From: Sandaracinus amylolyticus
Lineage (GTDB): Bacteria > Myxococcota_A > Polyangia > Polyangiales > Sandaracinaceae
NCBI RefSeq assembly: GCF_021631985.1
Contig: NZ_CP070225.1
Coordinates: 4,030,001-4,094,000 of the forward strand
DNA length: 64,000 bases
Reading direction: 5' to 3'
Part shown: in pieces, positions 1-18,056 of the stretch
Layout: every line of letters begins with the position of its first letter
Position numbering within the stretch: position 1 is the first letter of the stretch
Translations under genes and position numbers: made by a program
Notes under the pieces: generated by a model
Database searches by the model: none
What the model was told of the DNA's origin: nothing
The model's input: only the letters and a program-made list of their open reading frames with translations

Positions 1-11
1 GGGGAGGCGTG

Positions 12-407
12 ATGAACTGGGTATCCCTCGGCTTCGAGATCGCGCTCACGCTCGCGCGCGCGATCGTCTCGGCGATCCAAGCGGGCGACGCGTCCATCCT
101 CGACAAGCCCGTGCGCGAGCTGCTCGGGCCCGAGCTCGCGACGACGCTTGCGAAGAAGGTCGCGGACGCGAAGGCGCACGCGAAGTTCGGCGAGGCGTCG
201 ATCGTCGTGAACGGGCGCACGACGCCGATCGCGGCGGCGGTCATCGACTATGCGCTCGCGCGCTCGCTCGGCGGGTACGCGGAGGGCAGGAGCCCGTCGA
301 TCACGTGGCGGGCGGGCGGACGCGCGGGAATCCTCTCGCCCGGCAGCGCAGCGATCGCCGTGACGCCCGACCTCGTACTGAACGTGGTCGACACGGGCAA
401 CGCGTGA
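12..407 (+). CDS. Hypothetical island/phage-type protein, 131 aa
   Basis: A GGGGAGG ribosome binding sequence at positions 1-7 precedes GTG at 9 and ATG at 12; spacing favours the ATG. The N-terminus (about residues 5-25) is hydrophobic and helical, the middle is Lys/Ala-rich, and the C-terminal half reads like a small beta domain. It overlaps the next gene by four bases (GTGA at 404-407), so the two are probably translationally coupled. I do not recognise the family. Position directly ahead of a tiny one-TM protein suggests an envelope- or lysis-related cassette, but this is only inference. Confidence 0.65.
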   Translation: MNWVSLGFEIALTLARAIVSAIQAGDASILDKPVRELLGPELATTLAKKVADAKAHAKFGEASIVVNGRTTPIAAAVIDYALARSLGGYAEGRSPSITWRAGGRAGILSPGSAAIAVTPDLVLNVVDTGNA

Positions 408-535
408 GGCCGCGCCCGCCGCCGTACTGGTGGATCGTCGAGCCCGTCGCGGTGCTGGTGAGTGTCGTCGTGCTCGGCGCGGCGCTCGCGACCGCGATCG
501 AGGCGCTGCGCTGGCTCGGCTCTCTTGTGGGGTGA
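404..535 (+). CDS. Very small single-pass membrane protein, 43 aa
   Basis: GTG start at 404 overlaps the TGA of the upstream gene in the arrangement GTGA, a strong sign of translational coupling and the reason for choosing this start. After a short Arg/Pro/Trp-rich head (RPRPPPYWW) comes one hydrophobic segment, about residues 14-34 (Val/Leu/Ala-rich), and a short tail. There is no cleavable signal. Size and context resemble holin- or spanin-like accessory proteins of mobile elements, but there is no diagnostic motif. The next ATG follows four bases after its stop. Confidence 0.55.
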   Translation: MRPRPPPYWWIVEPVAVLVSVVVLGAALATAIEALRWLGSLVG

Positions 536-539
536 TCCG

Positions 540-1160
540 ATGACGAGACTCGCGTTCACGGGCGACCGCAACCGGCCGGGCAAGAAGGACTGGAGCGGCG
601 CGTTCGCGCCCGAGGCGCTGCGCTTCGCGGGCCACGCGCGGGACGTTGCGCGCATCCCGCTCGATGCGACCGCGAGCGACATGCGCATGCTCATCTCGGC
701 GTCGATCCGATCCGCGGGTCCGTCGATCGTCGGCTTTTTCTGCCACGGGCTCACGCGGCGCATCGAGCTCGGCTTCGACATGGGCACCGTCGACGAGCTC
801 GCCGCCGCGCTCGCTGAGGTCGGCTGCTCGCGCGTCGCGCTCTACGCGTGCTCGACGGGCAGCGGCAAGGGACCCGGCGGCGACGGCGGCTTCGCCGATG
901 CGCTGCGCGACGCGATGTGCCGCGCGGGCCTCGTCGACGCGCGCGTGCTCGCCCACGAGACCGCGGGCCACGCGACGCAGAACCCGCGCAAGCGCTTCTT
1001 CGACGGGATGGGATCGCCCGTCGGCGGTGTCGGCGGCTACTGGATCGTCGAGCCCGGCTCCTCGCTGTGGAAACCGTGGACGCGGCGGCTGCGCGAGGAT
1101 GCGGACTTTCGGCTCACGCTCGTCGAGATGTGCGTGGGCGAGATCCACCGCGAGCTTTAG
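540..1160 (+). CDS. Caspase/CHAT-like (DUF4347-type) His-Cys protein, 206 aa
   Basis: ATG at 540 lies 4 bases after the stop of the 43-aa membrane protein, so the three genes 12-1160 form one transcription unit. The centre has the layout of caspase-fold (CD-clan, CHAT/DUF4347-like) domains: a beta strand ending in Phe-Cys-His69-Gly, a helix that counts off subunit length, then a second strand ending Leu-Tyr-Ala-Cys104-Ser, followed by a small-residue loop. His69 and Cys104 would be the catalytic dyad. A C-terminal tail (about 150-206) is Trp/Arg-rich. The fold is inferred from motif spacing only; a non-catalytic role is possible. The last 47 bases overlap the convergent gene ending at 1114. 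Confidence 0.65.
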   Translation: MTRLAFTGDRNRPGKKDWSGAFAPEALRFAGHARDVARIPLDATASDMRMLISASIRSAGPSIVGFFCHGLTRRIELGFDMGTVDELAAALAEVGCSRVALYACSTGSGKGPGGDGGFADALRDAMCRAGLVDARVLAHETAGHATQNPRKRFFDGMGSPVGGVGGYWIVEPGSSLWKPWTRRLREDADFRLTLVEMCVGEIHREL

Positions 1161-1905
1161 ACGTGGTCGAGTCTCCTGAACGCTTCCCAGCGGGCGAGCT
1201 CCCGTTTTCCACCGCTGGCAGCAGATCGTCCGGTCGGAACGACGGGTGCAGCGTGAGCGACCCGCCACGTCGAAGCACAGCTTCTATCGGCACCTTCAGC
1301 CCCATCCGTTCCTCGTACCACCCAATCAGCGCGCGCTGCGCGTACCAGAGGAACGGAATCTGTGGGCGACCAATGTCAAGCAACCGCACGAGTTCCAACT
1401 TCCGCTCGGCGTCCGTCTCGAGCAGCGCGTCCACCAGCCGAGAGAGCGGGTGATCGTCCGGCGTTGCGAGTCTAGAGAGGACCTCTTGGCCGGCGTCAAC
1501 CTCCCCGATCGCAATCCGCAGCAAAGCAAGCGCGACGAGCGTCTCGGATTCGTCAGGCGCGACTCTATCCAGCATCGCCGCGGCATCTGCGAATCGACCG
1601 ACCTTCGTAGATCGATAGGCGAGTTCAATGTACAGCTGCGACCAGAAGCGCTGCGAAGACGATGGATCCGCGCCATCCGGCAGGACCGAGAGGGGCGAAG
1701 AAAGGTCGTGCGACGCCATCGGGAACGCGAGCACGTTGATGCGATAGAGCGAACGCAACCACCCGCGCTGTGGGCGCTTCACTTCGACCGGACGTCCGAA
1801 CCAATCGAAATACAACGAGCGGACGTTCGCGGGGAACTCTACGTCGGCCGCGAATGGGCTTACCCGGAGCACACAGTCGACGCCGTTGAGATCCTTGATC
1901 GGCAT
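1114..1905 (-). CDS. Hypothetical protein, helical-repeat middle; probably 3' part of an interrupted gene
   Basis: From ATG at 1905 this reads 263 aa. Residues about 85-190 are Leu/Ala-rich helices resembling TPR-type repeats. Coding character continues upstream of the ATG: the in-frame sequence between 1906 and 1971 translates to plausible protein (FHDLVESDGTYGVVELWL) but has no ATG, GTG or TTG. It is closed by a TGA at 1972-1974, beyond which the same frame remains open to 2220. The last 25 or so residues are Ser/Arg/Gly-rich and overlap the convergent gene, so the natural C-terminus may also be lost. Codon use is less GC-biased than the chromosome. Function unknown. Confidence 0.55.
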   Translation of the reverse strand: MPIKDLNGVDCVLRVSPFAADVEFPANVRSLYFDWFGRPVEVKRPQRGWLRSLYRINVLAFPMASHDLSSPLSVLPDGADPSSSQRFWSQLYIELAYRSTKVGRFADAAAMLDRVAPDESETLVALALLRIAIGEVDAGQEVLSRLATPDDHPLSRLVDALLETDAERKLELVRLLDIGRPQIPFLWYAQRALIGWYEERMGLKVPIEAVLRRGGSLTLHPSFRPDDLLPAVENGSSPAGKRSGDSTTSKARGGSRPRTSRRA

Positions 1906-1971
1906 TCGAAGCCACAGCTCGACGACTCCGTAAGTGCCATCACTCTCGACGAGATCGTGGAACGCGTCGAC

Positions 1972-2220
1972 TCAGTGTTCCGCCGCCGCGCGCAGCGTAC
2001 CGCCGCCGCCACGAAATGAACTAATCTTTGGAAGATCCCGTTCGAACTCGGGGAACTTGCCCGACCACGTCCGAACAAGGTGATCCACGAACGCACCGCG
2101 CGTGAGCCGCTGAAACCTGAGTTTGACGCTACCCGCGTGACCAGCATCGATTCGCCAGCCAACCGCCTTCGGGCTGAACTCGGCGTCACGTAGCGACTTC
2201 GTGTACGCCGTCAGAGCCAA
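1972..2220 (-). CDS. Hypothetical protein, 82 aa; probably 5' part of an interrupted gene
   Basis: A TTG start at 2220 overlaps the end of the HNH gene by 10 bases. The 82-aa product has no recognised domain; it contains a charged Trp/Phe-rich stretch around residues 40-65. It ends at TGA 1972-1974, and the downstream gene (1114-1905) is in exactly the same frame with coding-like sequence right up to that TGA. The two are therefore best read as one gene of about 368 codons with a nonsense codon, unless the downstream part has its own start at 1905. No start-proximal ribosome binding site is obvious, consistent with coupling to the HNH gene. Confidence 0.45.
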   Translation of the reverse strand: MALTAYTKSLRDAEFSPKAVGWRIDAGHAGSVKLRFQRLTRGAFVDHLVRTWSGKFPEFERDLPKISSFRGGGGTLRAAAEH

Positions 2221-2579
2221 ACGACGAGCGACGAACCCCGCGCCTCCCCGCCTCCAGCAACGAACTTCGACGGCAGTTCTAGAAGACGGGTGGCAAGACG
2301 CTCAGTGACGTAAGGCGCTCGCTTGAACGCGCGCAGGCGCTCGGTCGAGTAGAGGCCGCGATCATTGCCCTTGGGGTCCGCTGCATCGTGATGGACGCGA
2401 CAGAGCGCGATCATCCCTTCGGGATTGTGCGAGCGCCCCTCGTGAAACGGGGGATCGAAGTGGTGGAACGTGAGGAGCGGGTTGCCGCATCCAGGTACGG
2501 GGCACCCGTAGTTGACCTCCGCCCTCAGAGCCCGTTGCACGGCCTCAGGGATCGCCCGTGTCTGTTCGTCTTCGCTCAT
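2211..2579 (-). CDS. HNH endonuclease-family protein, 122 aa
   Basis: The protein has the HNH core in its middle: a first Cys pair (CPVPGC), then LLTFHHFDPP with the catalytic-type His pair, an Asn in the SHNPEG turn, and LCRVHH closing the fold. HNH enzymes bind one divalent metal and cut DNA; small stand-alone members are common in phages and genomic islands, as packaging-associated or restriction nucleases. ATG at 2579 follows the upstream gene's stop by 51 bases in the same direction. The tail after residue 95 is unassigned. No partner that would fix its role (terminase, McrA-type specificity domain) is visible nearby. Confidence 0.8.
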   Translation of the reverse strand: MSEDEQTRAIPEAVQRALRAEVNYGCPVPGCGNPLLTFHHFDPPFHEGRSHNPEGMIALCRVHHDAADPKGNDRGLYSTERLRAFKRAPYVTERLATRLLELPSKFVAGGGEARGSSLVVWL

Positions 2580-2630
2580 CGACAGAATCGTACTCCCTCC
2601 CGTCGGTCGCGAGGTCGGCGTGAGCGACGG

Positions 2631-2885
2631 CTACGAACCCTGCGACCGCACCCGCCCGTACAGGGCGAGCAGCTCCCGCTCGAGCTCCGCGTGCGACCAC
2701 TGCCGCACGGGCGAGTCGATCGGCGCGTGCCACGTCGACGCGCGCAGGTAGACGGTGTAGCCGCGCACGTCGTACTCGACTTCGCATCCGTGCCAGCGAT
2801 GGCCGCGGCGCAGGAGCGGCGCCCAGCGGAGGCCGAGGCCCACCGACTCGGGCCACGAGACGACGACGATGCGGCGCTCGCTCAC
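2631..2885 (-). CDS. Hypothetical protein, 84 aa
   Basis: GTG at 2885 overlaps the TGA of the preceding frame in the GTGA arrangement, which fixes this start. The product is small, beta-rich and aromatic (SWPESVGLGLRW, then DVRGYTVYLR) and has a helical, acidic C-terminus ending near YGRVRSQG. I do not recognise a family. It belongs to the minus-strand run of island genes between 5457 and 1114 and is followed 51 bases later by the HNH gene. Confidence 0.6.
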   Translation of the reverse strand: MSERRIVVVSWPESVGLGLRWAPLLRRGHRWHGCEVEYDVRGYTVYLRASTWHAPIDSPVRQWSHAELERELLALYGRVRSQGS

Positions 2886-2995
2886 GGGCGCGGCGCGGAC
2901 GTCGCCTGCCGCACGGTGATCGCGTCGCCCGCGTGCTCGACGATCACGCCTCCGAGCCACCGGCCGTCGCGGTGCACGAGGTCCCATCGCGTGCG
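2882..2995 (-). other. Out-of-frame C-terminal continuation of the 3258 gene
   Basis: Read from CGC at 2995 (one base back from the frame of the ATG at 3258), this stretch encodes 37 plausible residues, with WDLVHRDGRWLGGVIVEH near the start, and ends TGA at 2882-2884 overlapping the GTG of the next gene. That overlap is how genuine neighbours in this run are joined, which argues this is the real 3' end. Either a one-base indel (biological or sequencing) or a -1 ribosomal frameshift would join the halves; I see no classic slippery heptamer at the joint. Confidence 0.45.
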
Positions 2996-3258
2996 GCGAG
3001 CCGCAGCAGCTCGCGGCCGAGATCGGCGGCGTGCTCCGACGACAGCGGGATCTCGGCATCGCCGGTCGGCGTCACGACGCGGAGCGCGAGCGGGTATGTC
3101 GAGACGTTCTCGCCCTCTCGCGGATCCCGGAGCCGGACGCGGACTTCGGCGAACGGACCGAGGGAGTGCCACCGCGCGAGAGTGCGCTCGCGGTGCTCCG
3201 GCTCGCCGGCGATCGGGTCATCGACGATCACGGCGTCAGGGCGGCGGTCGTTGCTCAT
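2944..3258 (-). CDS. Hypothetical protein, N-terminal frame of a frame-broken gene
   Basis: ATG at 3258 begins a convincing protein (MSNDRRPDAVIVDDPIAG) that includes a beta-rich segment near LRVVTPTGDAEIPLS and a helix HAADLGRELLRLAA. In this frame the end after about residue 88 turns to low-complexity Ser/Thr/Ala/Gly (TATAGGSEA), stopping at 2944. The -1 frame over the same bases instead gives WDLVHRDGRW and a sensible C-terminus ending at 2882 in a GTGA overlap with the next gene. The intact product was therefore probably about 125 aa, with a single-base frame change near 2995. Function unknown. Confidence 0.5.
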   Translation of the reverse strand: MSNDRRPDAVIVDDPIAGEPEHRERTLARWHSLGPFAEVRVRLRDPREGENVSTYPLALRVVTPTGDAEIPLSSEHAADLGRELLRLAARDGTSCTATAGGSEA

Positions 3259-3269
3259 CGACACCGATC

Positions 3270-4157
3270 CTACTCCTCGCGCTCGATCCTCGGCCGACGC
3301 GCACGCAGCCGGAGGTTGCCTCCGGTGTCGTGCCACTGCGCGTCCGGCGGCGTCTCCTCGCCGACCTCCGGATCGAACGTCTTCCAGCGCTCCGCGACGT
3401 CGGCCGGGTTGTTGATCTTCTCGACAACCCGGTACCGCCCACGGACGAAGAACGGGCCGAGCGTGAACTCGTCGGATCGGGTCGCCGGCTCGAGAACGAA
3501 CATCCGCTGCGCGTGTCGCCCACCGTCGCCGAACTTGATCGCGACGCGCCGGAACTCGCGGATGACGCCGTCGATAACACGGCCGTCACGGCCGCTCTCC
3601 TCGAACGCTCCGCCCTTCACCATGAAGCTCGCCCCCGGCGCGTTCCCGATGCGGAGCTCGAGCGCAGGCGCGGGCGCCGCGCGGGGCCCGCGGCGCGCCA
3701 CGCGCTCGCGGTAGGTCGCGATCGACGCGGGGTCGATCAGGTACACGTTCCCGCGCTTCACCGCGGCGAGCTTCTCGCTCGCGATCGCCTGACGCACGGC
3801 GCCCTCGCTCATCTCGAGCCTCTCAGCAGCTTCCGCGACGGTGAGCGAGAACGCGGCGTTCGCCGCGCCCGCATCGAGGTTCCCACTCTGCACGCGCTTG
3901 GCGTCGAGCAGGTCCTGCATCACGTGCCACACGGGGTTCGCGTGCACGGCCTTCGTGACCGCACCGCGACCCGGGAACACGCTCTGATCGAGCACGGGGT
4001 TCCCGCGGCCGTAGACGAGTTCGGAGAGCTGCGCCTCGCTCACGCCGGGATCGTGCGCGGCGCGCTTCACGCGCTCGAGGAAGGTCGCGACCTCGGCGCT
4101 CGGCTTCGCGTACTCGATCACCTCGCCGAGGATCGTCGTGTAGCGCTCGGTGGTCAT
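3270..4157 (-). CDS. Helix-turn-helix (excisionase-like) domain protein, 295 aa
   Basis: ATG at 4157 is preceded by GAGAGGAACAGAG. An all-helical N-terminal segment (about 1-100) is followed by a clear HTH of the excisionase/MerR-like class at about residues 103-150: LTVAEAAERLEMSEGAVRQA, then the wing-like KRGNVYLIDP. The C-terminal half (150-295) is a beta-rich domain ending in Arg-rich residues. The N-terminus has PGVSEAQLSELVYGRGNPVL, which could be a further HTH-like element. It probably binds DNA, as an island regulator or excision factor; the C-terminal domain is unassigned. It is followed 11 bases later by the frame-broken gene. Confidence 0.75.
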   Translation of the reverse strand: MTTERYTTILGEVIEYAKPSAEVATFLERVKRAAHDPGVSEAQLSELVYGRGNPVLDQSVFPGRGAVTKAVHANPVWHVMQDLLDAKRVQSGNLDAGAANAAFSLTVAEAAERLEMSEGAVRQAIASEKLAAVKRGNVYLIDPASIATYRERVARRGPRAAPAPALELRIGNAPGASFMVKGGAFEESGRDGRVIDGVIREFRRVAIKFGDGGRHAQRMFVLEPATRSDEFTLGPFFVRGRYRVVEKINNPADVAERWKTFDPEVGEETPPDAQWHDTGGNLRLRARRPRIEREE

Positions 4158-4227
4158 GGCTCTCTGTTCCTCTCGCTCGAAAAGGCGACGGGGGGCTCGC
4201 TTCCTCCAAGCGGCCCCCCGTCCAGAA

Positions 4228-4542
4228 TCAGACGATCTCGGCCACCCCCAGGTACCGGGTGTAGATGGCGAGCTGTCGGTAGTGCGCTTTCGCGAAATCG
4301 ATGACTTCGCGGAGCGCATCCGCCTGCTTCACCATCCCCTCGACTGCGACGACCATCGCGACCGTCGCGTCTCGGTAGGTGATTCCGCCCTCGTCGCGCC
4401 AGAGGCCCTCGCTGCCCTTTGGGAGCCAGCTGAGGCCTCCGAAGCGGTCGAGGACGAAGGCCTCGAACACGCGGTGGTGAGTGGCGGAGAAGTGCTCGCC
4501 GTCGTTGTCGGCGAGCGGGACCAGGATGGTCACCTCGATCAT
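4228..4542 (-). CDS. Hypothetical alpha/beta protein, 104 aa
   Basis: ATG at 4542 has GGAAG upstream at suitable spacing. The product starts MIEVTILVPLADNDGEHF and has two beta-alpha units, with a strand VAMVVAVE and a C-terminal helix-strand AIYTRYLGVAEIV. The order of elements recalls ferredoxin-like small domains such as the DUF3574 group, but this is a weak resemblance and no catalytic motif is seen. A 70-base gap separates it from the HTH gene downstream. Confidence 0.6.
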   Translation of the reverse strand: MIEVTILVPLADNDGEHFSATHHRVFEAFVLDRFGGLSWLPKGSEGLWRDEGGITYRDATVAMVVAVEGMVKQADALREVIDFAKAHYRQLAIYTRYLGVAEIV

Positions 4543-4701
4543 CTGTCTTCCGTTTTCAAGGAGTCCCGGGGTCCGCCCGGTCGGTTGTCGACGTTGCCGC
4601 CGACCAGATGAAACTAGCACTTCAACTGACGCGCGCAACAGTTTTGACGACAGTAACCGTCGATTGCGCGGGTGATGTAGGAGCGTCGCGCGAACGTGCC
4701 T

Positions 4702-4932
4702 TCACGCGGCCGAGCGCTCGTCTGGTCTGACGATGGTCACCACGCCGGAGCGGACCGCGTCGGGTCCGAGCCGTCGCGCGACGCGCACCATCTCGTCGAG
4801 TCCGCACGCGACGCACACGAACCGTCGGTCCGCGAACACCCACGCCCGCTCGCACGCGCGGCAGATGTGGCGTCGACATCCCCCGCGACACCGATGCGTC
4901 CGCCGCTCCGCTCCACAGGCCTCGCACGTCAC
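4702..4932 (-). CDS. Small CxxC zinc-ribbon-like protein, about 76 aa
   Basis: GTG at 4932 is the start nearest to the first Cys pair; an ATG at 5013 would extend it but would overlap the upstream gene. The product carries repeated metal-ligand-type pairs: CEAC, CRGGC, CRAC and CVAC within the first 50 residues, enough for two zinc sites, then a helix and a strand (GVVTIVRPD). Such proteins are frequent in mobile islands, where they bind nucleic acid or protein partners. Specific function unknown. It is separated by about 160 bases from the next gene downstream, in which I see no further gene. Confidence 0.6.
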   Translation of the reverse strand: MTCEACGAERRTHRCRGGCRRHICRACERAWVFADRRFVCVACGLDEMVRVARRLGPDAVRSGVVTIVRPDERSAA

Positions 4933-4969
4933 GCGAATGAGGACGCGCGCGGCGCGCCGGTCTGACGCG

Positions 4970-5233
4970 CTATGGCGCCTGCAGGTCGGGCGGGAGCAGT
5001 TCCGGCACGCCATCGATCTGGATCGCGATCGTGCGCGCCACGAGCTCGAGCAGTTCGGGAGTCAGCCCCGCGCCGTGGGCCGCCCGCCACGACGTCCAGT
5101 CGTCATACCGCACGAGCAGCGCGTCCAGGTCGGTCGCCACGCAGTACTCGACGCGCCCTCCGCTCGCGAGCTTGCCGAGGGGCGACCACGGGCGCTCGGG
5201 CTCCGCGTGCGCCCTCACGAGGTACATCCGCAT
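4970..5233 (-). CDS. Hypothetical protein, 87 aa
   Basis: ATG at 5233 overlaps the previous stop as TGATG, indicating coupled translation with the 74-aa gene. The product begins MRMYLVRAH, has a beta-alpha core (RVEYCVATDLDALLVRYDDW) and a helical C-terminus (LTPELLELVARTIA). No family recognised. The pair 5457-4970 looks like a small two-gene cassette. Confidence 0.65.
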   Translation of the reverse strand: MRMYLVRAHAEPERPWSPLGKLASGGRVEYCVATDLDALLVRYDDWTSWRAAHGAGLTPELLELVARTIAIQIDGVPELLPPDLQAP

Positions 5234-5457
5234 CACGCGTTCGCGGCGAGGAGCAGCCCGCCGCGGAGCGGACGCGTCGCGAGCTCGAGCACCGCGGCCA
5301 TCTCGCGCTCGCCAACGAGCTGTACGAGCCCTGGTGCGCGCTCGCGCAGGAGGCGCTCGAGGCGCGTGCGATCGAAGAACGGCGAGTAGTCGAACGCCAT
5401 CTCGACGATGCGACGGCGCGCGGCGATGCGGCGCGTGAGCAGCGAGCGACGCTTCAT
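5233..5457 (-). CDS. Small basic helical protein, 74 aa; paralog of the gene at 19698
   Basis: ATG at 5457 opens MKRRSLLTRRIAARR. It is closely related to the 66-aa product of 19698-19898: over the 55 residues from RIAARR to RPL I count 34 identities, including MA, PFF, RAP-LV and LVGERE. The family looks all-helical with a positively charged N-terminus. The C-terminal LLLAANA is absent from the paralog. One copy lies in the island and the other in chromosomal context, so the family moves between the two. Function unknown; DNA or RNA binding is a guess from charge. Confidence 0.7.
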   Translation of the reverse strand: MKRRSLLTRRIAARRRIVEMAFDYSPFFDRTRLERLLRERAPGLVQLVGEREMAAVLELATRPLRGGLLLAANA

Positions 5458-5523
5458 GCAGAGACGGAGAGCACGACGGGTCGGGCCGCGCAACGCGCGC
5501 GAGCTCGCGCCGATGCGACGGGC

Positions 5524-5718
5524 ATGGAGACCTGGAACAGCTGGACACTGTGGGCACCCGGCGACGGGTACGGGTGGCGACTCGAATTGCACGAGCGCGA
5601 GACCGGCGGGATCCCCATCGATGCCGAGCTCGTCATCGGGCACAGGCGCTCGTGGCTGGTCTGGCGAATCGGCGACGCGGGGAAGGTGCTCCGACGGGTG
5701 TCGAGTGCGAGTGCGTAG
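5524..5718 (+). CDS. Possible small Trp-rich protein, 64 aa
   Basis: ATG at 5524 reads METWNSWTLWAPGDGYGWRL, then LELHERETGG and a strand RRSWLVWRIGDAG. Composition looks protein-like, but no ribosome binding site stands out. The opposite frame is also open over the region as an upstream extension of the 74-aa gene. It lies immediately before the SIR2-like gene on the same strand (42-base gap), so it might be its small partner. Low certainty. Confidence 0.35.
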   Translation: METWNSWTLWAPGDGYGWRLELHERETGGIPIDAELVIGHRRSWLVWRIGDAGKVLRRVSSASA

Positions 5719-5760
5719 CGCGCGGAGCACCGGCGCGCGCAGACGAGTATTCTTCTATCC

Positions 5761-6834
5761 ATGACATCGCACGTGATTGTTCTCGGGGCCGGTGCATCCG
5801 TGGACTGCGGGGGCCCCGTGATGCGCGACTTCCTCGACATCGCCGAGGACCTGATGCGTGACCGGGCCTCCGGGGTGGATCACGCGGCGTTCGCTCGGGT
5901 GTTTGAGGGCATTCACCACCTGCGGCGAGCGCATTCGAATGCGCAGCTCGACGTTCAGAACATTGAGACGGTGCTCGCTGCGTTCGAGATGGCGGAACTG
6001 TTCGGCACGCTCGGTGACATGGCTCCCGAGGACGTCAAGAAGCTCTCCGCATCGATGCGAACGCTGATCGTCGACACCATCGAGAACAGAATTCAGTTCA
6101 AGAGGGGAACCGCCTCGCTGGAGCCTCCGCGCACGTATTCGTGGCTGGCCCTCCTCTGCAAGCAGATGCTCGACGACGGCAAGCCGCCGACGATCATCAC
6201 ATTCAACTACGACACGGCGCTCGACTACGCGCTGCATTACTACCGAGCGAATCCGTCGTACTGTCTCGATGGCGCGGAGCCGAACGGCGTCCGGCTGCTC
6301 AAGCTTCATGGCTCACTAAACTGGGCGACCTCGCCCGATGCGCCGGAAGAGATCGTCGCCCTTCCGTGGTCGCAGCTCACAGGGTCCATGCATCTCGGAT
6401 CGTCCGAGACGCTCTCCGTTCCCGTGAGCAAGTTCCTGGGGAAGCTCGGCGACAAGTACGCCCGCAGACCGGTCATCGTTGCTCCGTCGTGGAGCAAGCT
6501 GCCGTCGTATCAACTGCTCGCACCAGTATGGCGGCGGGCCGCGCGTGAGCTCCGCGACGCGGAGTACATCGACGTCGCGGGATTCTCGCTCGCGGCATCC
6601 GACGGCTTCTTCCAGATGCTCTACGGGATCGGAACTACGGGCCGCGCGCGCATTCGGCGATTCGCAGTGGCCGACCCCAACATCGAGGAGATCCGAGACC
6701 GGTTCGAAAACCTGCTCGGACAAGCTGCGCTACCTCAGTTCAAGCCGGTCGATGAGTACTTCGATGGTTTCGTAGAGAACCATCTGCGGCATGCTTGGGG
6801 ATACCCGACGTACCCGCTCCATCACTACTACTAG
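5761..6834 (+). CDS. SIR2-like (SIR2_2 family) NADase-type protein, 357 aa
   Basis: The N-terminus VIVLGAGASVDCGG is the NAD-binding GAGAS loop (residues 9-13). Residues 145-151 (IITFNYD) supply the conserved Asn149 and Asp151, and LLKLHGSLNW places the catalytic-type His at 183. A C-terminal strand IDVAGFSLAASD completes the Rossmann sheet. Stand-alone SIR2-like proteins of this architecture (as in Thoeris ThsA, DSR and related systems) act as NAD hydrolases in antiphage defence; a deacetylase role is unlikely because the Cys4 zinc module is absent. It sits alone on the + strand inside the island, with a lower GC bias than neighbours. Defence function is inferred. Confidence 0.85.
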   Translation: MTSHVIVLGAGASVDCGGPVMRDFLDIAEDLMRDRASGVDHAAFARVFEGIHHLRRAHSNAQLDVQNIETVLAAFEMAELFGTLGDMAPEDVKKLSASMRTLIVDTIENRIQFKRGTASLEPPRTYSWLALLCKQMLDDGKPPTIITFNYDTALDYALHYYRANPSYCLDGAEPNGVRLLKLHGSLNWATSPDAPEEIVALPWSQLTGSMHLGSSETLSVPVSKFLGKLGDKYARRPVIVAPSWSKLPSYQLLAPVWRRAARELRDAEYIDVAGFSLAASDGFFQMLYGIGTTGRARIRRFAVADPNIEEIRDRFENLLGQAALPQFKPVDEYFDGFVENHLRHAWGYPTYPLHHYY

Positions 6835-6863
6835 CGGCTTCGAAGCTTGCCCGGCGCGAGCGC

Positions 6864-7385
6864 CTAAGGATCGGTCATCGCTGCGAGCTCGGCGATTCGC
6901 GCGTCCGTGATGTCGCGCTCGACGAGGTACCGCGCCGCGCGCTTCAGCGCGCGCAGGCGGGGCTTGTCGTCGCCGAGCATCCCGACGACCAGCGCGTGCG
7001 TCTCGGTCGCGTCGGCGTGCGCAGCGAGGCGCGCCGCGACACCGAGCACGCCCGCGTGCGCATCGGCGATGTGCTCGCGCAGGTCGCGCTCGAGCTCGGC
7101 CGCGACGTCGCCCGGGAGCCGTCCGCGCCGATGCGCGATCGTCCACACCGAGACGAGCCCGCCCGGCGCGATCGACGCCGTCGCGCGCGCATCACCGAGC
7201 CCGTCGACGCCGACCGAGACGCGCCACTCGATGCCGTCGATCACGAGCGCGCCCGTCGGCGCCACGAGGCGGGCGAGCTCCGCGCCCGCGCGCGCTCGCT
7301 CGTCGGCTGCGCGCCTCGCGGCTTCGGCCTCCTGCCGAGGGGTCGGGATCTTGGCGCCTCGAACACCTGAGCGACCGGAGATCAT
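6864..7385 (-). CDS. Hypothetical protein, 173 aa
   Basis: ATG at 7385. The first 40 residues are an Arg/Ala/Glu-rich helix (possible coiled coil). They are followed by a beta-rich middle (GALVIDGIEWRVSV, then GLVSVWTIAHRRGR) and a helical C-terminal third. No domain recognised. It is divergent from the RNase H-fold/kinase pair and ends 30 bases from the 3' end of the SIR2-like gene, so it is probably a separately regulated island gene. Confidence 0.65.
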   Translation of the reverse strand: MISGRSGVRGAKIPTPRQEAEAARRAADERARAGAELARLVAPTGALVIDGIEWRVSVGVDGLGDARATASIAPGGLVSVWTIAHRRGRLPGDVAAELERDLREHIADAHAGVLGVAARLAAHADATETHALVVGMLGDDKPRLRALKRAARYLVERDITDARIAELAAMTDP

Positions 7386-7692
7386 GGACGTCCAGACGCG
7401 AGGGCGGACGCGCCACTGACGCTGACGTCAGAACGGCGCCGAATCGAATGCGCGCGAACTACAGCGCGCGAACATACGACCCGGAGACACGACGCCGTTC
7501 CGGTCCGAGCGGTTCGAGCTCGACGAGCGGCTTGGACATGCGTCTCGACGTCCCCCCTGGGGGCGTACTGACGTCTGGCTAGGGAAAACACTGACCCTGA
7601 TGAATGTTCGCGTGCCGCTGTTGCCTTCCCGGACAGCAGCATTACCGATCCCACCCCTTCGGCCGGGGCCGGCCAGAGCTTGCGGGGGGTGC
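7386..7692. promoter_or_regulatory. Divergent intergenic region with repeated CTGACGTC motif
   Basis: This 307-base gap separates the divergent starts at 7385 and 7693. It contains the palindrome CTGACGTCAG at 7422-7431, a preceding CTGACG half-site at 7417-7422, and a second ACTGACGTC near 7567-7575. There is also a CCCCCTGGGGG palindrome near 7555. Repeated half-sites between divergent genes suggest an operator. GGGGGG directly before ATG 7693 serves as ribosome binding site. No gene is seen here. Confidence 0.35.
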
Positions 7693-8157
7693 ATGAGGGC
7701 TTTGGGAGTTCGCGCGATCAACGGCGGTGCGCACTGGGTGCTCGTCGAAGGCACTGTCACCGCGCCGAAGCTCATCGCGAGCGGTGCGATCGAGAAGGCG
7801 AAAGCATTCGACGACAACAAGGCGCTGAGCAATCTCCGAGAGAAGCTCCGCGCGCTAATCACCGACCAGAAGGTCGACGCGGTCGTCGTTCGCGAGAGCG
7901 ACTACACGCCGGGCGCGACGAAGCTCTTCCCGCGCGTGCGAGCCGAGGGTGTCGCGCTCGAGGTTGCGTCGGCACACGCGAAGCCCGTCGAGCTCCTCAA
8001 ATGGCCGACGATCGCTTCGCGACTCGGCGTCGAGAACAAGGCAGGAAAGCGGAAGGGATACCTCGCAGCGCCTGAGTTCCGCGGCGTCAATTGCGCTGGG
8101 TTTTCCGCGGAGGACCACGACGCGCTGCACGCCGCCTGTGCGGGGCTCGCAAAGTGA
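7693..8157 (+). CDS. RNase H-fold protein resembling DUF3010, 154 aa
   Basis: ATG at 7693 follows a GGGGGG run. The protein starts MRALGVRAINGG, a first strand with a resolvase/RNase H-like hairpin. Around residues 40-75 it has FDDNKALSNLREKLRAL, then KVDAVVVRE, the pattern seen in DUF3010 proteins, a family assigned to the RNase H-like superfamily. The C-terminal half has AEGVALEVASAHAKPVELL. It lacks an obvious full set of acidic metal ligands, so nuclease activity is uncertain. It is translationally coupled (GTGA, 8154-8157) to the kinase gene downstream, implying a joint function. Confidence 0.6.
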   Translation: MRALGVRAINGGAHWVLVEGTVTAPKLIASGAIEKAKAFDDNKALSNLREKLRALITDQKVDAVVVRESDYTPGATKLFPRVRAEGVALEVASAHAKPVELLKWPTIASRLGVENKAGKRKGYLAAPEFRGVNCAGFSAEDHDALHAACAGLAK

Positions 8158-9239
8158 GCTCGGCACCTAGCAGAGAACGGCGCGTCGCGATCAGTTCTCG
8201 ATTCGAGCGCATCGAGCGGATCGGCCGTGGCGAAGGCCAAAACTCGCAGGTCTGGCGTGCCTTCGATCGCCAACGTGGCGACCAGGTGATCCTCAAGGAG
8301 ATCGACTTACGCTTCTTCGACGGCGATCCCGAACTCTTCTTCGAGGAGACGCAAGCGGTTTGCGCCGCGGCCTGCGACCGCGTCGTCCCGCTCTACGTGG
8401 CCGGCAGGAACGACACGCACATCTGTCTGACGATGCCGATCATGGCGGGGTCGCTCGCGAAGGAGATCCGCGATGCACCGATCCCCGCGGCCCGTGCAAT
8501 CGCGATCGGCCAGGACATCTGCGATGGCGTCGGTGCAGTTCACCGAGCCGAACGTCTTCACCTGGACCTCAAGCCCGCGAACGTGCTTCTCGACGCTCAC
8601 GGACGAGGTGTGATCGCCGACTTCGGGCAAGCGATGCGCGTCGACGGGCTCGGAATCGCGATCAGCGAGCCACGCATGTACGAGCCCTACTGGCCGCCCG
8701 AGGTCTTCGCTAAGAAGCGGTCGCTCACCGTCCTCTCCGATGTGTATCAGATCGGCCTGACCCTCTATGCAGCGGTCAACGGCGACAACTGGTATCGCTC
8801 CCAGCTCGATCAGCTGCACGAACTCGAGCTCGCGCCGAAGATCCTTGACGGCACGTTCCCCGATCGCGACGCGTTCTTGCCTCACGTTCCCGATCACCTG
8901 CGCCGCGTCATCCGGAAGGCGACGGCGCTCAAACCCAGCGATCGCTTCGAATCCGCCGCGGACCTATCCGACGCTCTGGGAGACGTCGACCCGAAGCACC
9001 CGTGGCGCGTGACCCAGGACGATCACGATGGCTATGCATGGGTGTTGGACGAGACGGCCGACCGCTCGGCCGTGAAGGTCTATGCACGCTTCGACGGCAA
9101 GTACTGGAGTGTCGAAGTCTGGACGCAGACCGGCGACGCATCGCCGCGAAAACGCGCCGCGAGCAGCCTCTGGGGCAAGAAGCTGACGTGGGTGAAGGCC
9201 AACACCCTCCTCAAGCGCGCTTTCCGCTCGCTGCCCTAG
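8154..9239 (+). CDS. Ser/Thr protein kinase with C-terminal extension, 361 aa
   Basis: GTG at 8154 overlaps the upstream TGA. The kinase domain spans about residues 17-275: Gly loop GRGEGQNSQVW (24-34), ATP-anchoring Lys48, catalytic loop HLDLKPAN (136-143, Asp138, Asn143), and DFG at 156-158. The usual HRD Arg is Leu, so it is a non-RD kinase probably not gated by activation-loop phosphorylation. Residues 285-361 form a small beta-rich domain (GYAWVLDE, KYWSVEVW). There is no membrane segment, unlike the chromosomal kinases at 13442 and 60080. Island location and coupling to an RNase H-fold partner suggest a regulatory or defence module rather than developmental signalling. Confidence 0.85.
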   Translation: MSSAPSRERRVAISSRFERIERIGRGEGQNSQVWRAFDRQRGDQVILKEIDLRFFDGDPELFFEETQAVCAAACDRVVPLYVAGRNDTHICLTMPIMAGSLAKEIRDAPIPAARAIAIGQDICDGVGAVHRAERLHLDLKPANVLLDAHGRGVIADFGQAMRVDGLGIAISEPRMYEPYWPPEVFAKKRSLTVLSDVYQIGLTLYAAVNGDNWYRSQLDQLHELELAPKILDGTFPDRDAFLPHVPDHLRRVIRKATALKPSDRFESAADLSDALGDVDPKHPWRVTQDDHDGYAWVLDETADRSAVKVYARFDGKYWSVEVWTQTGDASPRKRAASSLWGKKLTWVKANTLLKRAFRSLP

Positions 9240-9396
9240 GCCTTGCTCGTTTCGCGGCGGGTCGCGCGTTCGACAAGCGGATTCGATCCTGTAGGCACAG
9301 GCTGCAAAACGGGTTCTCCGCTGCCGACCGCGCCGATGTTTGGCGCTGTCGCCGACAGAATCGGCAGATCCCCGGCTCGCCCATATCGCGCTTCAT
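9211..9396 (-). CDS. Possible small two-CxxC protein, 61 aa
   Basis: From ATG at 9396 the product has CRFC and CSLC separated by about 17 residues, a compact zinc-ribbon spacing, followed by a Lys/Arg/Ala-rich tail that may contact nucleic acid. It overlaps the 3' end of the convergent kinase gene by 29 bases. A hairpin-like inverted repeat CTGATC-ACAA-GATCAG lies upstream at 9428-9443 and could be its operator. The reading is supported only by the Cys pattern and length. Confidence 0.4.
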   Translation of the reverse strand: MKRDMGEPGICRFCRRQRQTSARSAAENPFCSLCLQDRIRLSNARPAAKRARPRAASGKRA

Positions 9397-9575
9397 TCTA
9401 CGCGCTCGCCGCGCGACACATACATACCTGATCACAAGATCAGCATCAACACGCAGCTGGCTTCCACCTGAACTTCCACTTCGAGCGCATCGCGTTGCAT
9501 CGGCCCGCAACGCCACGAGGCGCTAACTGTTGAAGATCACACGACTTCGATCATGGTTGCGGGCCCGACATCCCT

Positions 9576-9619
9576 CTTCCCAAGCTGAATGTCGTGGGTT
9601 CGAATCCCATAGCCCGCTC
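9576..9619 (+). repeat. tRNA-Gly(CCC) 3'-half fragment, att-type direct repeat copy 1
   Basis: The 44 bases start in the anticodon loop (CTTCCCAAG, anticodon CCC), continue through the 3' anticodon stem, the T arm (GTGGGTTCGAATCCCAT) and the acceptor 3' strand (AGCCCGC). The 5' half is missing: the upstream bases do not pair with GCTG of the anticodon stem. The same 44 bases recur exactly at 11253-11296 with mismatches immediately outside on both sides. This is the pattern left by integration at a tRNA 3' end. Confidence 0.85.
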
Positions 9620-9665: not shown

Positions 9666-9986
9666 CTACGCACCCCCTTTCACGACCTTCACCACGGCGT
9701 GGACGGCGGTGCGTTTCTCGTCCTCGCCCACCTTCGAGTACCGCTCGTTGTTCGCCTCGTCGGCGTGGCCGATGAGCGCCTGACGCACGAGCTCGCTCGC
9801 GTGCTGGCGTACGAGGTTGTTCCAGGTGTGCCGGAGGCAGTGCACCGCGGGGCGGTCGCCGAGCTTGATCTTCGCGACGGCGCAGACCTTCTCGACGCTC
9901 TTCCGGACGTACCCGTTCGTGACGTACTGGACGGTGCCTCGCCGTTTCCTCGCAAACGCCTGGCTTCGGGTACCGTCCACCACCAA
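9666..9986 (-). pseudogene. C-terminal fragment of a tyrosine recombinase (integrase)
   Basis: About 106 residues of the catalytic domain remain: the HCLRHT motif (His-x-x-Arg box) at about residues 68-73, GHADEANNERYSKV with the second His and the nucleophile Tyr near residue 93, and a short tail. A full integrase is 350-400 aa, so the N-terminal core-binding domain and the first catalytic Arg are gone. The frame loses integrase character just upstream of 9986, where the immunity-type gene on the other strand begins. Its end lies 46 bases from att copy 1, as expected for an integrase of the 9620-11296 element. It should be inactive. Confidence 0.8.
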
Positions 9987-10315: not shown

Positions 10316-11020
10316 ATGACCCATGTCGACGACGCCACGCTGTTCGCTGCGCTGCGGAGCGCTGACCCGGATGCCGTCGACGCTGCCCTCGCGAACGGCG
10401 GGGATCCCGACGGCCCGCGTGATCGATACGGGCGGACCGCGCTCCACGTCGCCGTGAGAACCGGGCGGCACACCTGCATCGCGCGACTGATCGCGCGCGG
10501 CGCGGATCCGTTCGTTTCCGATCCTCGCGGCGAATCCGCACTCGACGCTGCGCTCGACGAGGGCGACGCGACGCTCTTCGACGCGATGCCCAGCGCAGGC
10601 CGAAGCTTGCCCCCGTTGAAGCTGGCGCGCCGGCTCAACGTCGCCGTCCGATGGCCGAAGCTCGCGAGCTGGATTCTCCAACCGGGCGATGCGCCCCTAA
10701 CCGACGCGACATCCTCGGAACGAGCCATCGCGGAGGATTGGGAGGATGACGCCCTCCCCGAGCCGGTCACGGCGAGCCTGCTCCATGCGCTCGTCGACGC
10801 GCACAACTGGGACAGCGGGAACGAGCTCGTCGTGCGCGTCGTCGCGCATCCGCTCTGCACGCCGCTCACCGCGCGGCTGGCGTATGACCGCGCGGAGCTC
10901 GCGTCCTACGATCCCAGTGAACCGGTTCCCGCTTGGCAGCGGGCCGACGTGCGATGGCAGGCCGACTTGTTCGTCGTGCTCCACACGCGATTCGCAGCAG
11001 CGATCGACGAACCTCGCTGA
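10316..11020 (+). CDS. Ankyrin-repeat protein with DUF4274-like C-terminal domain, 234 aa
   Basis: ATG at 10316. Residues about 8-90 contain ankyrin repeats (YGRTALHVAVRTGRHTCIARL, with the following GADPFVSDPRGESALDAAL). Residues about 155-205 read LLHALVDAHNWDSGNELV then HPLCTPLTARLAYDRAE, resembling DUF4274, a domain seen in proteins neighbouring polymorphic toxins. The combination, beside a MafI-like gene, suggests a second immunity or toxin-neutralising protein. It is cytoplasmic, with no signal. The gap to the upstream gene is 40 bases, so the two may be co-transcribed. Confidence 0.7.
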   Translation: MTHVDDATLFAALRSADPDAVDAALANGGDPDGPRDRYGRTALHVAVRTGRHTCIARLIARGADPFVSDPRGESALDAALDEGDATLFDAMPSAGRSLPPLKLARRLNVAVRWPKLASWILQPGDAPLTDATSSERAIAEDWEDDALPEPVTASLLHALVDAHNWDSGNELVVRVVAHPLCTPLTARLAYDRAELASYDPSEPVPAWQRADVRWQADLFVVLHTRFAAAIDEPR

Positions 11021-11252
11021 GCGCGGTCAAAGCTCGCCGAGCGCGCTCGCGCATTCTTGGTGATGCCGGAGCTGGCGCTGGGGCGCGGTCTCGGCGCTCG
11101 AGTGAGCAGGCCGACTTCGATGCCGGCGTCATCCGGGATCCCCGGCTCGGACCCCGGCAACCGGCTACGACGCGCCGATTGTTGACCCATGTCGGAGGCA
11201 CCGCGACGGCAAGAAACGCCCGGAAACGCGCAAAACTGAGACCGCGCGCTTG

Positions 11253-11296
11253 CTTCCCAAGCTGAATGTCGTGGGTTCGAATCCCATAGCCCGCTC
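11253..11296 (+). repeat. tRNA-Gly(CCC) 3'-half fragment, att-type direct repeat copy 2
   Basis: Exact copy of 9576-9619 in the same orientation, 1677 bases downstream. It too lacks the 5' tRNA half. It would be the chromosomal-side boundary of the right-hand remnant element; sequence to its right resumes ordinary chromosomal character by about 11.5 kb. Confidence 0.85.
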
Positions 11297-11301
11297 AGAG
11301 A

Positions 11302-16367: not shown

Positions 16368-18056
16368 TCAGCCGGGATCGATCGTGACCGCGAGATCCTC
16401 GCGCAGGCGATAGCCGCGGTCACCGGTGCGGATCGCGTCGCGCAGCCCGAGGCGGCGCAGCGTCGCGATCGCGACGTTCATGCGGTTCTCGAGGAGGCGC
16501 TCGCCGAGCCGCGCGTCCTCGGGCCACAGGCGCGCGACCAGGGTTGCGCGCGCAACCGTCACGCCGGGCTCGGCGACGCGCGCTTCCGCGAGCACGGCGA
16601 GGGTCCTGCGCAGCACCGGGCGCGACTCGAGGTCGATCGGCCGCGAGCCCTCGAGCGAGAACCAGCGTCCGTCGTGCGCGATCACGAGGCCGGGCGTGGG
16701 CTCGATGCGCGGCAGCTTCGACGCGGCCTCGCCGACGATCGCGCGGCGCGCGAGCGCGCACGCGACGCGCAGGTCGGCCCAGTGCGCCGCGACCGAGCCG
16801 CGCTCGATCTCCGCGAGCACGTCGCGCGCGTCGTCGACCGGCGCGCCCTCGGTGACCGCGAGCACCTGCTCGAGCACGCGCATCAGCTCGGCGCCGTACG
16901 CGGGGCCGACGCCCTCCTGCATCAGGAGGCGCGCCTGGGCGAACGCGGCGCGCGCTTCGGTCGGCCGTCCGGCGAGCGCCTCCGCAGCTCCGAGGAACGC
17001 GGAGAACGTGATGCGCGCGTGACGATTGCCGACGTCCTCGAGCACCAGATCGGCCTCGACGAGATCGCGCGCCGCGGGACGCGGATGGCCACGCACCAGG
17101 TGCACGACGCCGACCGAGCCGTGCACCATCGCGCGTGCCACGCGCGAGCCGCGCGCCATCGCGACCTCGCGCGCGCGGCCGAGGCAGTGCAGCGCGTGGA
17201 GCGGCCGTCCGGCGTCGACCTCGAGCATCGAGAGATAGAGGAGCGCGCGGCACTCGTTCTCGCCCTCGCCCCGCTCTCGCTCGAGCGCGATCGCGCTCTC
17301 GAGCACGCGCCGTCCTTCGTCGTGCACGCCGCGCTCGACGAGCACGATGCCGAGCTGCGCCTGCGCGCGACCGAGCACGTCCTTCGCGCCGATGCGCTCG
17401 GCGAGCAGGATGGCGCGACGCGCGTGGCGCGCGGCGTCCGGCGCGAGCTCGTGCGAGCCGATCGCGGCGAGCCCGACGTGCGCGAGCGCCTCGAGCGCGA
17501 CCAGCTCGTTCGACGCTGCGATCGAGCGCGCCACTTCGGTGTGGGCGCGCGCCGTGGCCCACTCGCTGCGACCGAACGCGATGCGGCCCTGCTCGAGCGC
17601 GACGCGCGCGCGCAGCTCGGGCGGCGCGTCGTCCCCGGCGCATTCGCTCGCACGATCGGCCGCGGACTGTGCGCGCGCGATACGGCCGTGGGCCCACGCG
17701 TCGATCGCGATGCGGAGCCAGATCTCGGCGGCGGCCGTTCCCCCGAGCGCGTTCGCGGCGGAGGCGGCGACATCGTAGGCGCGCGTCCGCTCGGCTTCGC
17801 CGCGCGCGATCGAGAGCGCCGCGAGCGCGCCCTCCGACGCGAGCGCGGGGTGCTTCGCGACGGCGCGCGATGCATCGTCGACCAACGTCGCGAAGAGCGC
17901 CTCGGCGCGGGCGACGAGCTTCGGCGCGGGCGCGTCACGTCCCGCGAGCAGCACGGGCGCGAGCTTCGCGGCCTCGCCCAGCGCCTGCTGCAGCGAGGAC
18001 GACGACGCGCCTCGAGAGCGCGTGCGAGAAGGCGCGGCGGCGGGACGACGTGCCAT
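16368..18056 (-). CDS. TPR protein with C-terminal winged-helix (OmpR-type) DNA-binding domain, 562 aa
   Basis: ATG at 18056. Residues about 60-450 are a long series of helical pairs with TPR-like spacing (ASNELVALEALAHVGLAA, DVLGRAQAQLGIVLVERG, ECRALLYLSMLEVDAG). Residues about 465-555 form a transcriptional-regulator winged helix: VLRRTLAVLAEA, then ARATLVARLWPED, a recognition helix LLENRMNVAIATLRRLGL and the wing IRTGDRGYRL. The order is the reverse of most SARP/AfsR-type regulators. It lies 53 bases downstream of the pseudokinase-like gene and probably forms an operon with it, making it a candidate transcriptional output. Confidence 0.85.
   Translation of the reverse strand: MARRPAAAPSRTRSRGASSSSLQQALGEAAKLAPVLLAGRDAPAPKLVARAEALFATLVDDASRAVAKHPALASEGALAALSIARGEAERTRAYDVAASAANALGGTAAAEIWLRIAIDAWAHGRIARAQSAADRASECAGDDAPPELRARVALEQGRIAFGRSEWATARAHTEVARSIAASNELVALEALAHVGLAAIGSHELAPDAARHARRAILLAERIGAKDVLGRAQAQLGIVLVERGVHDEGRRVLESAIALERERGEGENECRALLYLSMLEVDAGRPLHALHCLGRAREVAMARGSRVARAMVHGSVGVVHLVRGHPRPAARDLVEADLVLEDVGNRHARITFSAFLGAAEALAGRPTEARAAFAQARLLMQEGVGPAYGAELMRVLEQVLAVTEGAPVDDARDVLAEIERGSVAAHWADLRVACALARRAIVGEAASKLPRIEPTPGLVIAHDGRWFSLEGSRPIDLESRPVLRRTLAVLAEARVAEPGVTVARATLVARLWPEDARLGERLLENRMNVAIATLRRLGLRDAIRTGDRGYRLREDLAVTIDPG

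Follow-up and report, generated by a model that had tools for sequence, protein, structure and literature searches.

The closest described relative of the system considered here is the Stk protein kinase of E. coli phage 933W. This kinase is reported to be expressed in lysogeny and to bring about abortive infection upon superinfection by phage HK97 (PMC8008677, PMC6356687), and exclusion by 933W is credited to the kinase (PMC8008677). Activation by a superinfecting phage and the abortive outcome are reported for 933W only (PMC8008677, PMC3681748). Here we describe a related pair of genes in a stretch of 64,000 nucleotides from Sandaracinus amylolyticus (contig NZ_CP070225.1, positions 4,030,001 to 4,094,000), hereafter called the window, whose first letter is position 1. 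The first gene encodes a small RuvC-like protein (P0001) and the second encodes a protein kinase (P0002). It is near certain that this pair belongs to the same module as stk of 933W. The system is of a known kind, and the pair in the window is a new, divergent member of it.

When P0002 is used as a query, its matches include kinases of Bacillus phage SPbetaL7 (E = 3e-34) and of a Mesorhizobium plasmid (1e-30), as well as stk of Stx-type phages (5e-18). A small open reading frame (ORF) overlaps the start of the kinase gene in both SPbetaL7 and Mesorhizobium. The small protein of SPbetaL7 matches its Mesorhizobium counterpart (1e-13) and the product of the gene upstream of stk in the Stx-type phages (3e-10), which overlaps stk and is annotated as a RuvC-like Holliday junction resolvase. 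An earlier note on this DNA, made from the sequence alone, had not recognized the combination of genes; the homologous overlapping pair in Stx-type phages identifies it as the same kind as the 933W stk locus. P0001 alone as a query gives no match in phages, plasmids, viral genomes or species genomes. A family profile built from 34 relatives without P0001 has P0001 as its sole match among the 679 ORFs of the window (8e-7). The stk pair itself was matched in 223 of 5426 complete E. coli genomes, with at least 80% of the pair present in 221. On the Mesorhizobium plasmid (pMspAR10a, locus L024), the small gene probably starts at TTG 4487, upstream of the annotated start, and DUF4433 and macro-domain genes (DarT/DarG-like) lie directly upstream of the pair.

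The two genes in the window (Table 1) are coupled as the earlier note had described, with the end of P0001 and the start of P0002 overlapping in the letters GTGA (8154-8157). Both exhibit the profile of real genes in their guanine-plus-cytosine (GC) fractions by codon position (0.68/0.48/0.80 for P0001 and 0.67/0.45/0.80 for P0002), and local GC content around the pair is ~64-70%, compared with ~72% in the surroundings. The catalytic loop of P0002 reads HLDLKPAN, confirming the replacement of HRD by HLD that had been noticed before; the kinase is therefore of the non-RD type, and both DFG and the N-lobe lysine are kept. All 59 unique full-length kinase relatives are non-RD with DFG. With a family kinase profile built without it, P0002 scores 214 bits, compared with 81 and 68 bits for two ordinary kinases of the window, and it matches phrog_2361 with an E value of 6.4e-41. 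Its best identity to any relative is 31%.

Table 1. Features of the gene pair and its surroundings (window positions unless another coordinate is given).
Feature	Position	Strand	Description
P0001, small gene	7693..8157	+	ATG start, TGA stop, 154 aa (amino acids); RuvC-like, probable pseudonuclease
P0002, kinase gene	8154..9239	+	GTG start, TAG stop, 361 aa; Stk-type protein kinase
P0002 domains	residues ~17-283		Kinase domain, then short C-terminal domain; unusual G-loop GRGEGQNSQV
attR	9576..9619	+	Repeats the 3' half of tRNA-Gly(CCC) exactly over 44 nt (nucleotides); the 54-kb prophage ends here on the right
Prophage	G000:C1:3985612 to window 9619		54 kb, in tRNA-Gly(CCC); window 1-9619 is its right end
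SIR2-like ORF	5761..6834	+	PADLOC SIR2 4.3e-9; Pfam SIR2_2 1.8e-4, below cut-off
Intergenic region	7386..7692	.	307 bp separating the pair from the divergently oriented 173-aa ORF

PADLOC sees P0002 only via models of other kinases (mad6, 1.9e-32; PD-T4-6, 4e-32; Stk2, 5.3e-7), and none of its models matched P0001. The defence kinase Stk2 is not the best PADLOC match of P0002, its score falling far behind those of the mad6 and PD-T4-6 models. When the tail of P0002 was the sole query, only noise was returned. Kinases of S. meliloti and Rhodococcus plasmids, whose match spans this tail, were set aside as other kinases, and no comparable small gene was found next to them.

The pair is cargo of a prophage. 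An intact gene for the transfer RNA tRNA-Gly(CCC) is found 54 kb upstream and is adjoined by an integrase gene (phrog_1, 2e-53). Between the tRNA and the first copy of its 3' half are also found genes for a terminase, a major head protein, a baseplate wedge protein, RusA, exonuclease VIII, a DnaC-like loader and a cytosine methyltransferase. In a sister genome without the prophage (G181), the tRNA is followed after ~1.4 kb by a homologue of the window from position 16368 onward. It is these three lines of evidence, namely the copies of the tRNA 3' half, the phage genes and the sister genome lacking the insertion, that establish the pair as prophage cargo, located 337 bp inside attR. The earlier note had placed the pair in an island; that island is a prophage inserted in a tRNA gene.

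Because the pair is homologous to that of 933W and is carried by a prophage, a role in exclusion is favoured. We consider it probable, with appreciable room for doubt, that the pair serves the prophage in superinfection exclusion, as an abortive-infection module of the 933W-Stk type in which the kinase is the effector. By homology, exclusion is the likely function of the copy in the window in this host. The kinase would be made together with its partner in the lysogen and would be held quiet. A product of an incoming phage would then be sensed, possibly through the RuvC-like pseudonuclease, and this sensing would activate the kinase. By phosphorylating proteins of the host or the phage, the kinase would finally halt both the cell and the invader. 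We infer that P0001 serves either as the sensor of the invader or as the regulator that holds the kinase. The two-gene unit of a kinase and a nucleic-acid-enzyme-like partner that the earlier note had envisaged is real and conserved, and a role against phages is plausible, although the unit is of a known kind and its partner is probably a dead RuvC.

Copies outside phages speak for this proposal through their neighbours, as do the DarT/DarG-like genes of the Mesorhizobium copy; 138 such neighbours match 199 PADLOC models (cut-off 1e-10), including those for type I and type II restriction-modification, type I-F Cas with TniQ, DarG, AbiEii and dGTPase. In a control, 10 models are matched by 61 proteins taken from randomly chosen stretches of Myxococcota, and restriction, Cas and toxin-antitoxin functions are absent from these models; this control is drawn from another phylum and the PADLOC models are redundant, such that the comparison is qualitative only. 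That limit weighs against an exclusion function, as do the low identity of P0002 to the 933W kinase (only ~25%), the position of P0001 as the most divergent small protein, and the weak sequence scores on which the RuvC link of the small protein stands. To our knowledge, moreover, Stk of 933W is the only family member on which any experiment has been done.

The constancy of the pairing was evaluated by locus scans that used small-protein alignments only, and the presence of a kinase was not assumed. These scans yielded 85 loci, with a kinase of this type next downstream in 84 and the 85th ending at a contig edge. Among viral loci, 47 of 48 have the kinase immediately downstream (the remaining one is at a contig end), and all 37 genome loci carry it, mostly overlapping or abutting the small gene. 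The earlier note had staked its proposal of a conserved two-gene unit on the two genes occurring together elsewhere, and these counts bear it out. Hosts include Alpha- and Gammaproteobacteria, Bacteroidota, Bacillota and one cyanobacterium. Distances among small proteins correlate with distances among kinases (Mantel r 0.916, 45 pairs; none of 2000 permutations reaches this value, the maximum being 0.30), a correlation to which shared descent by itself contributes. Within 377 genomes of the phylum, the only other match of the small-protein profile is a canonical RuvC, which does not prove absence. When the whole genome was searched with the profile that leaves P0001 out, P0001 itself was lost at the prefilter stage, and the counts for other genomes are therefore minimum values. 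The kinase frame is interrupted or starts late in a few viral loci. In one of these (L049, 4453-5491), the kinase is split into two ORFs beside an intact RuvC-like partner, representing either a broken copy or a sequencing error.

Near-absolute pairing, with the small gene first and the kinase gene overlapping it, is also the layout of many toxin-antitoxin operons, and bacterial kinases such as HipA act as toxins. P0001 might accordingly neutralize or stabilize a kinase that is toxic when free, as part of a toxin-antitoxin or inhibitor pair that maintains the prophage and protects the cell only secondarily. We regard this arrangement as unlikely, given that many copies reside in defence-rich surroundings and that a RuvC-like fold would be needless for a pure antitoxin.

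P0001 has no credible Pfam match. The earlier note had labelled it DUF3010-like (PF11215), a membership that we rejected since P0001 is unmatched and just one of 35 relatives matches, at an E value of 0.004; the profile search pointed to RuvC instead. P0001 matches phrog_3875 ('RuvC-like') over its full length (E = 0.024), and a hidden Markov model of RuvC built from this order matches P0001 at 1.5e-4 (Z 1000). RuvC is the commonest Pfam match among 35 family members (7 of 35, best 1.5e-4), and the small-protein family profile matches RuvC in the PDB at 0.014 and the canonical RuvC gene of a related genome at 8.5e-4. Profile-profile comparison of the family with RuvC by hhalign gives a weak match. 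The related genome just mentioned (G200) is one of Myxococcota; its match is weak, and the RuvC gene there adjoins RuvA, which lends a little further weight to the connection with RuvC. Judged by sequence alone, P0001 is a relative of RuvC rather than of DUF3010, and the earlier placement of this protein in the RNase H superfamily holds to the same extent, via RuvC.

RuvC employs the catalytic acids D7, E66, D138 and D141. In the alignment, D7 corresponds to R7 and E66 to R67 of P0001. Of the 62 unique sequences of the family, 61 extend to the first of these sites and all of them have R7; at position 67, one sequence has K and the other 61 have R. At the site of the last catalytic acid, E or D persists, but the family does not carry the RuvC set, its first two members being replaced. 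P0001 retains G5, R7, R49, R67, R81, E85 and E90, has D at alignment positions 70 and 143 where other members have E, and reaches a best identity of 24% to any relative. Because arginines occupy the sites of the first two catalytic acids of RuvC, P0001 is probably a dead nuclease, or pseudonuclease. It is very improbable, in our judgement, that P0001 acts as the effector, an active nuclease whose active site has been rearranged, and that the kinase is its regulator. The RuvC-like sequence is in keeping with such a role, and conserved acids at positions 70, 85, 90 and 143 could build a different metal site. However, the arginine at the D7 site is invariant and the E66 site is always R or K, and exclusion by 933W is attributed to its kinase (PMC8008677).

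A module that tunes lysogeny, adjusting the repressor or induction of its own prophage with no role against other phages, would suit the location of the pair in Escherichia phage JLK-2012, where cI and N flank it, and in a Providencia record, where a gene for a LexA-family repressor lies next to it, but is scarcely credible given the chromosome and plasmid copies beside restriction-modification, Cas and DarT/DarG-like genes, where prophage regulation is impossible as a job, and given the copy in the window, which lies at attR and distant from phage regulatory genes.

The divergent neighbour mentioned in the earlier note is present (6864-7385, minus strand). Repeats of CTGACGTC had also been reported between the divergent genes, and indeed all three matches in the window fall within 7422-7575, two of them from one palindrome. 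However, the motif is not over-represented in the 64-kb window (3 observed versus 5.8 expected). Several imperfect inverted repeats also occur within 7386-7692, and no sigma-70-type promoter match was found in this region. The cluster of CTGACGTC and inverted repeats is a possible candidate operator.

Other features of the prophage end provide context outside the module. The SIR2-like ORF, 0.86 kb upstream of the pair, is possibly a second prophage-borne defence gene. A small ORF on the minus strand (2211-2579) carries a stretch that resembles an HNH endonuclease by eye (CPVPGCGNPLLTFHHFDPPFHEGRSHNPEGMIALCRVHH) and has no Pfam match. Beyond attR, the 3' half of tRNA-Gly recurs in tandem at 11252-11301, and the interval between the copies holds a C-terminal fragment of a tyrosine integrase (9666-9986, minus strand) and an ankyrin-repeat ORF (10316-11020, plus strand). 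The segment 9576-11301 is what is left of a previous integration into this tRNA-Gly.

The exclusion of HK97 by 933W Stk can now be placed within a family that extends across Proteobacteria, Bacillota, Bacteroidota, a cyanobacterium and this Myxococcota-type genome. Every complete locus found via the small protein has a kinase after it, and the wider interest of the system lies in this constant partnership between a kinase and an apparently dead RuvC. Our literature search, whose reach did not include the primary 933W paper, found no description of the partnership. The apparently dead partner suggests, in a form open to direct test, how such kinases might sense infection. A more ambitious proposal, to which we give only a modest chance of being right, is that a dead Holliday-junction-resolvase fold senses phage DNA or recombination proteins and licenses a non-RD kinase across a class of prophage and defence-island exclusion systems, of which 933W Stk would be one branch and whose obligate partner would have been largely overlooked.

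Among known systems, PD-T4-6, Mads mad6 and Stk2 in PADLOC share a protein kinase domain with P0002, but the match is confined to that domain, and we know of no RuvC-like partner for any of them. RuvC resolvase (PF02075) is similar in sequence across most of the small protein, whereas D7 and E66 are replaced in the small-protein family, and P0001 lies outside any ruv operon in a genome that encodes its own canonical RuvC. Genes 73-72 of SPbetaL7 and SPbetaL6 (Bacillus), for which the literature search found no function, likewise consist of a small RuvC-like ORF overlapping a non-RD kinase gene, although they belong to a phage genome of another phylum. The stk locus of 933W, phi24B and relatives differs in its kinase, which is ~25% identical, and in its position between cI and N rather than at attR; the pair in the window, by contrast, resides in a Myxococcota-type genome of 11 Mb and is known from sequence alone. 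Nevertheless, both genes are homologous, follow the same order and overlap, the kinase is non-RD (HFD in stk) with the same unusual G-loop region, and both pairs are prophage-borne cargo of a temperate phage.
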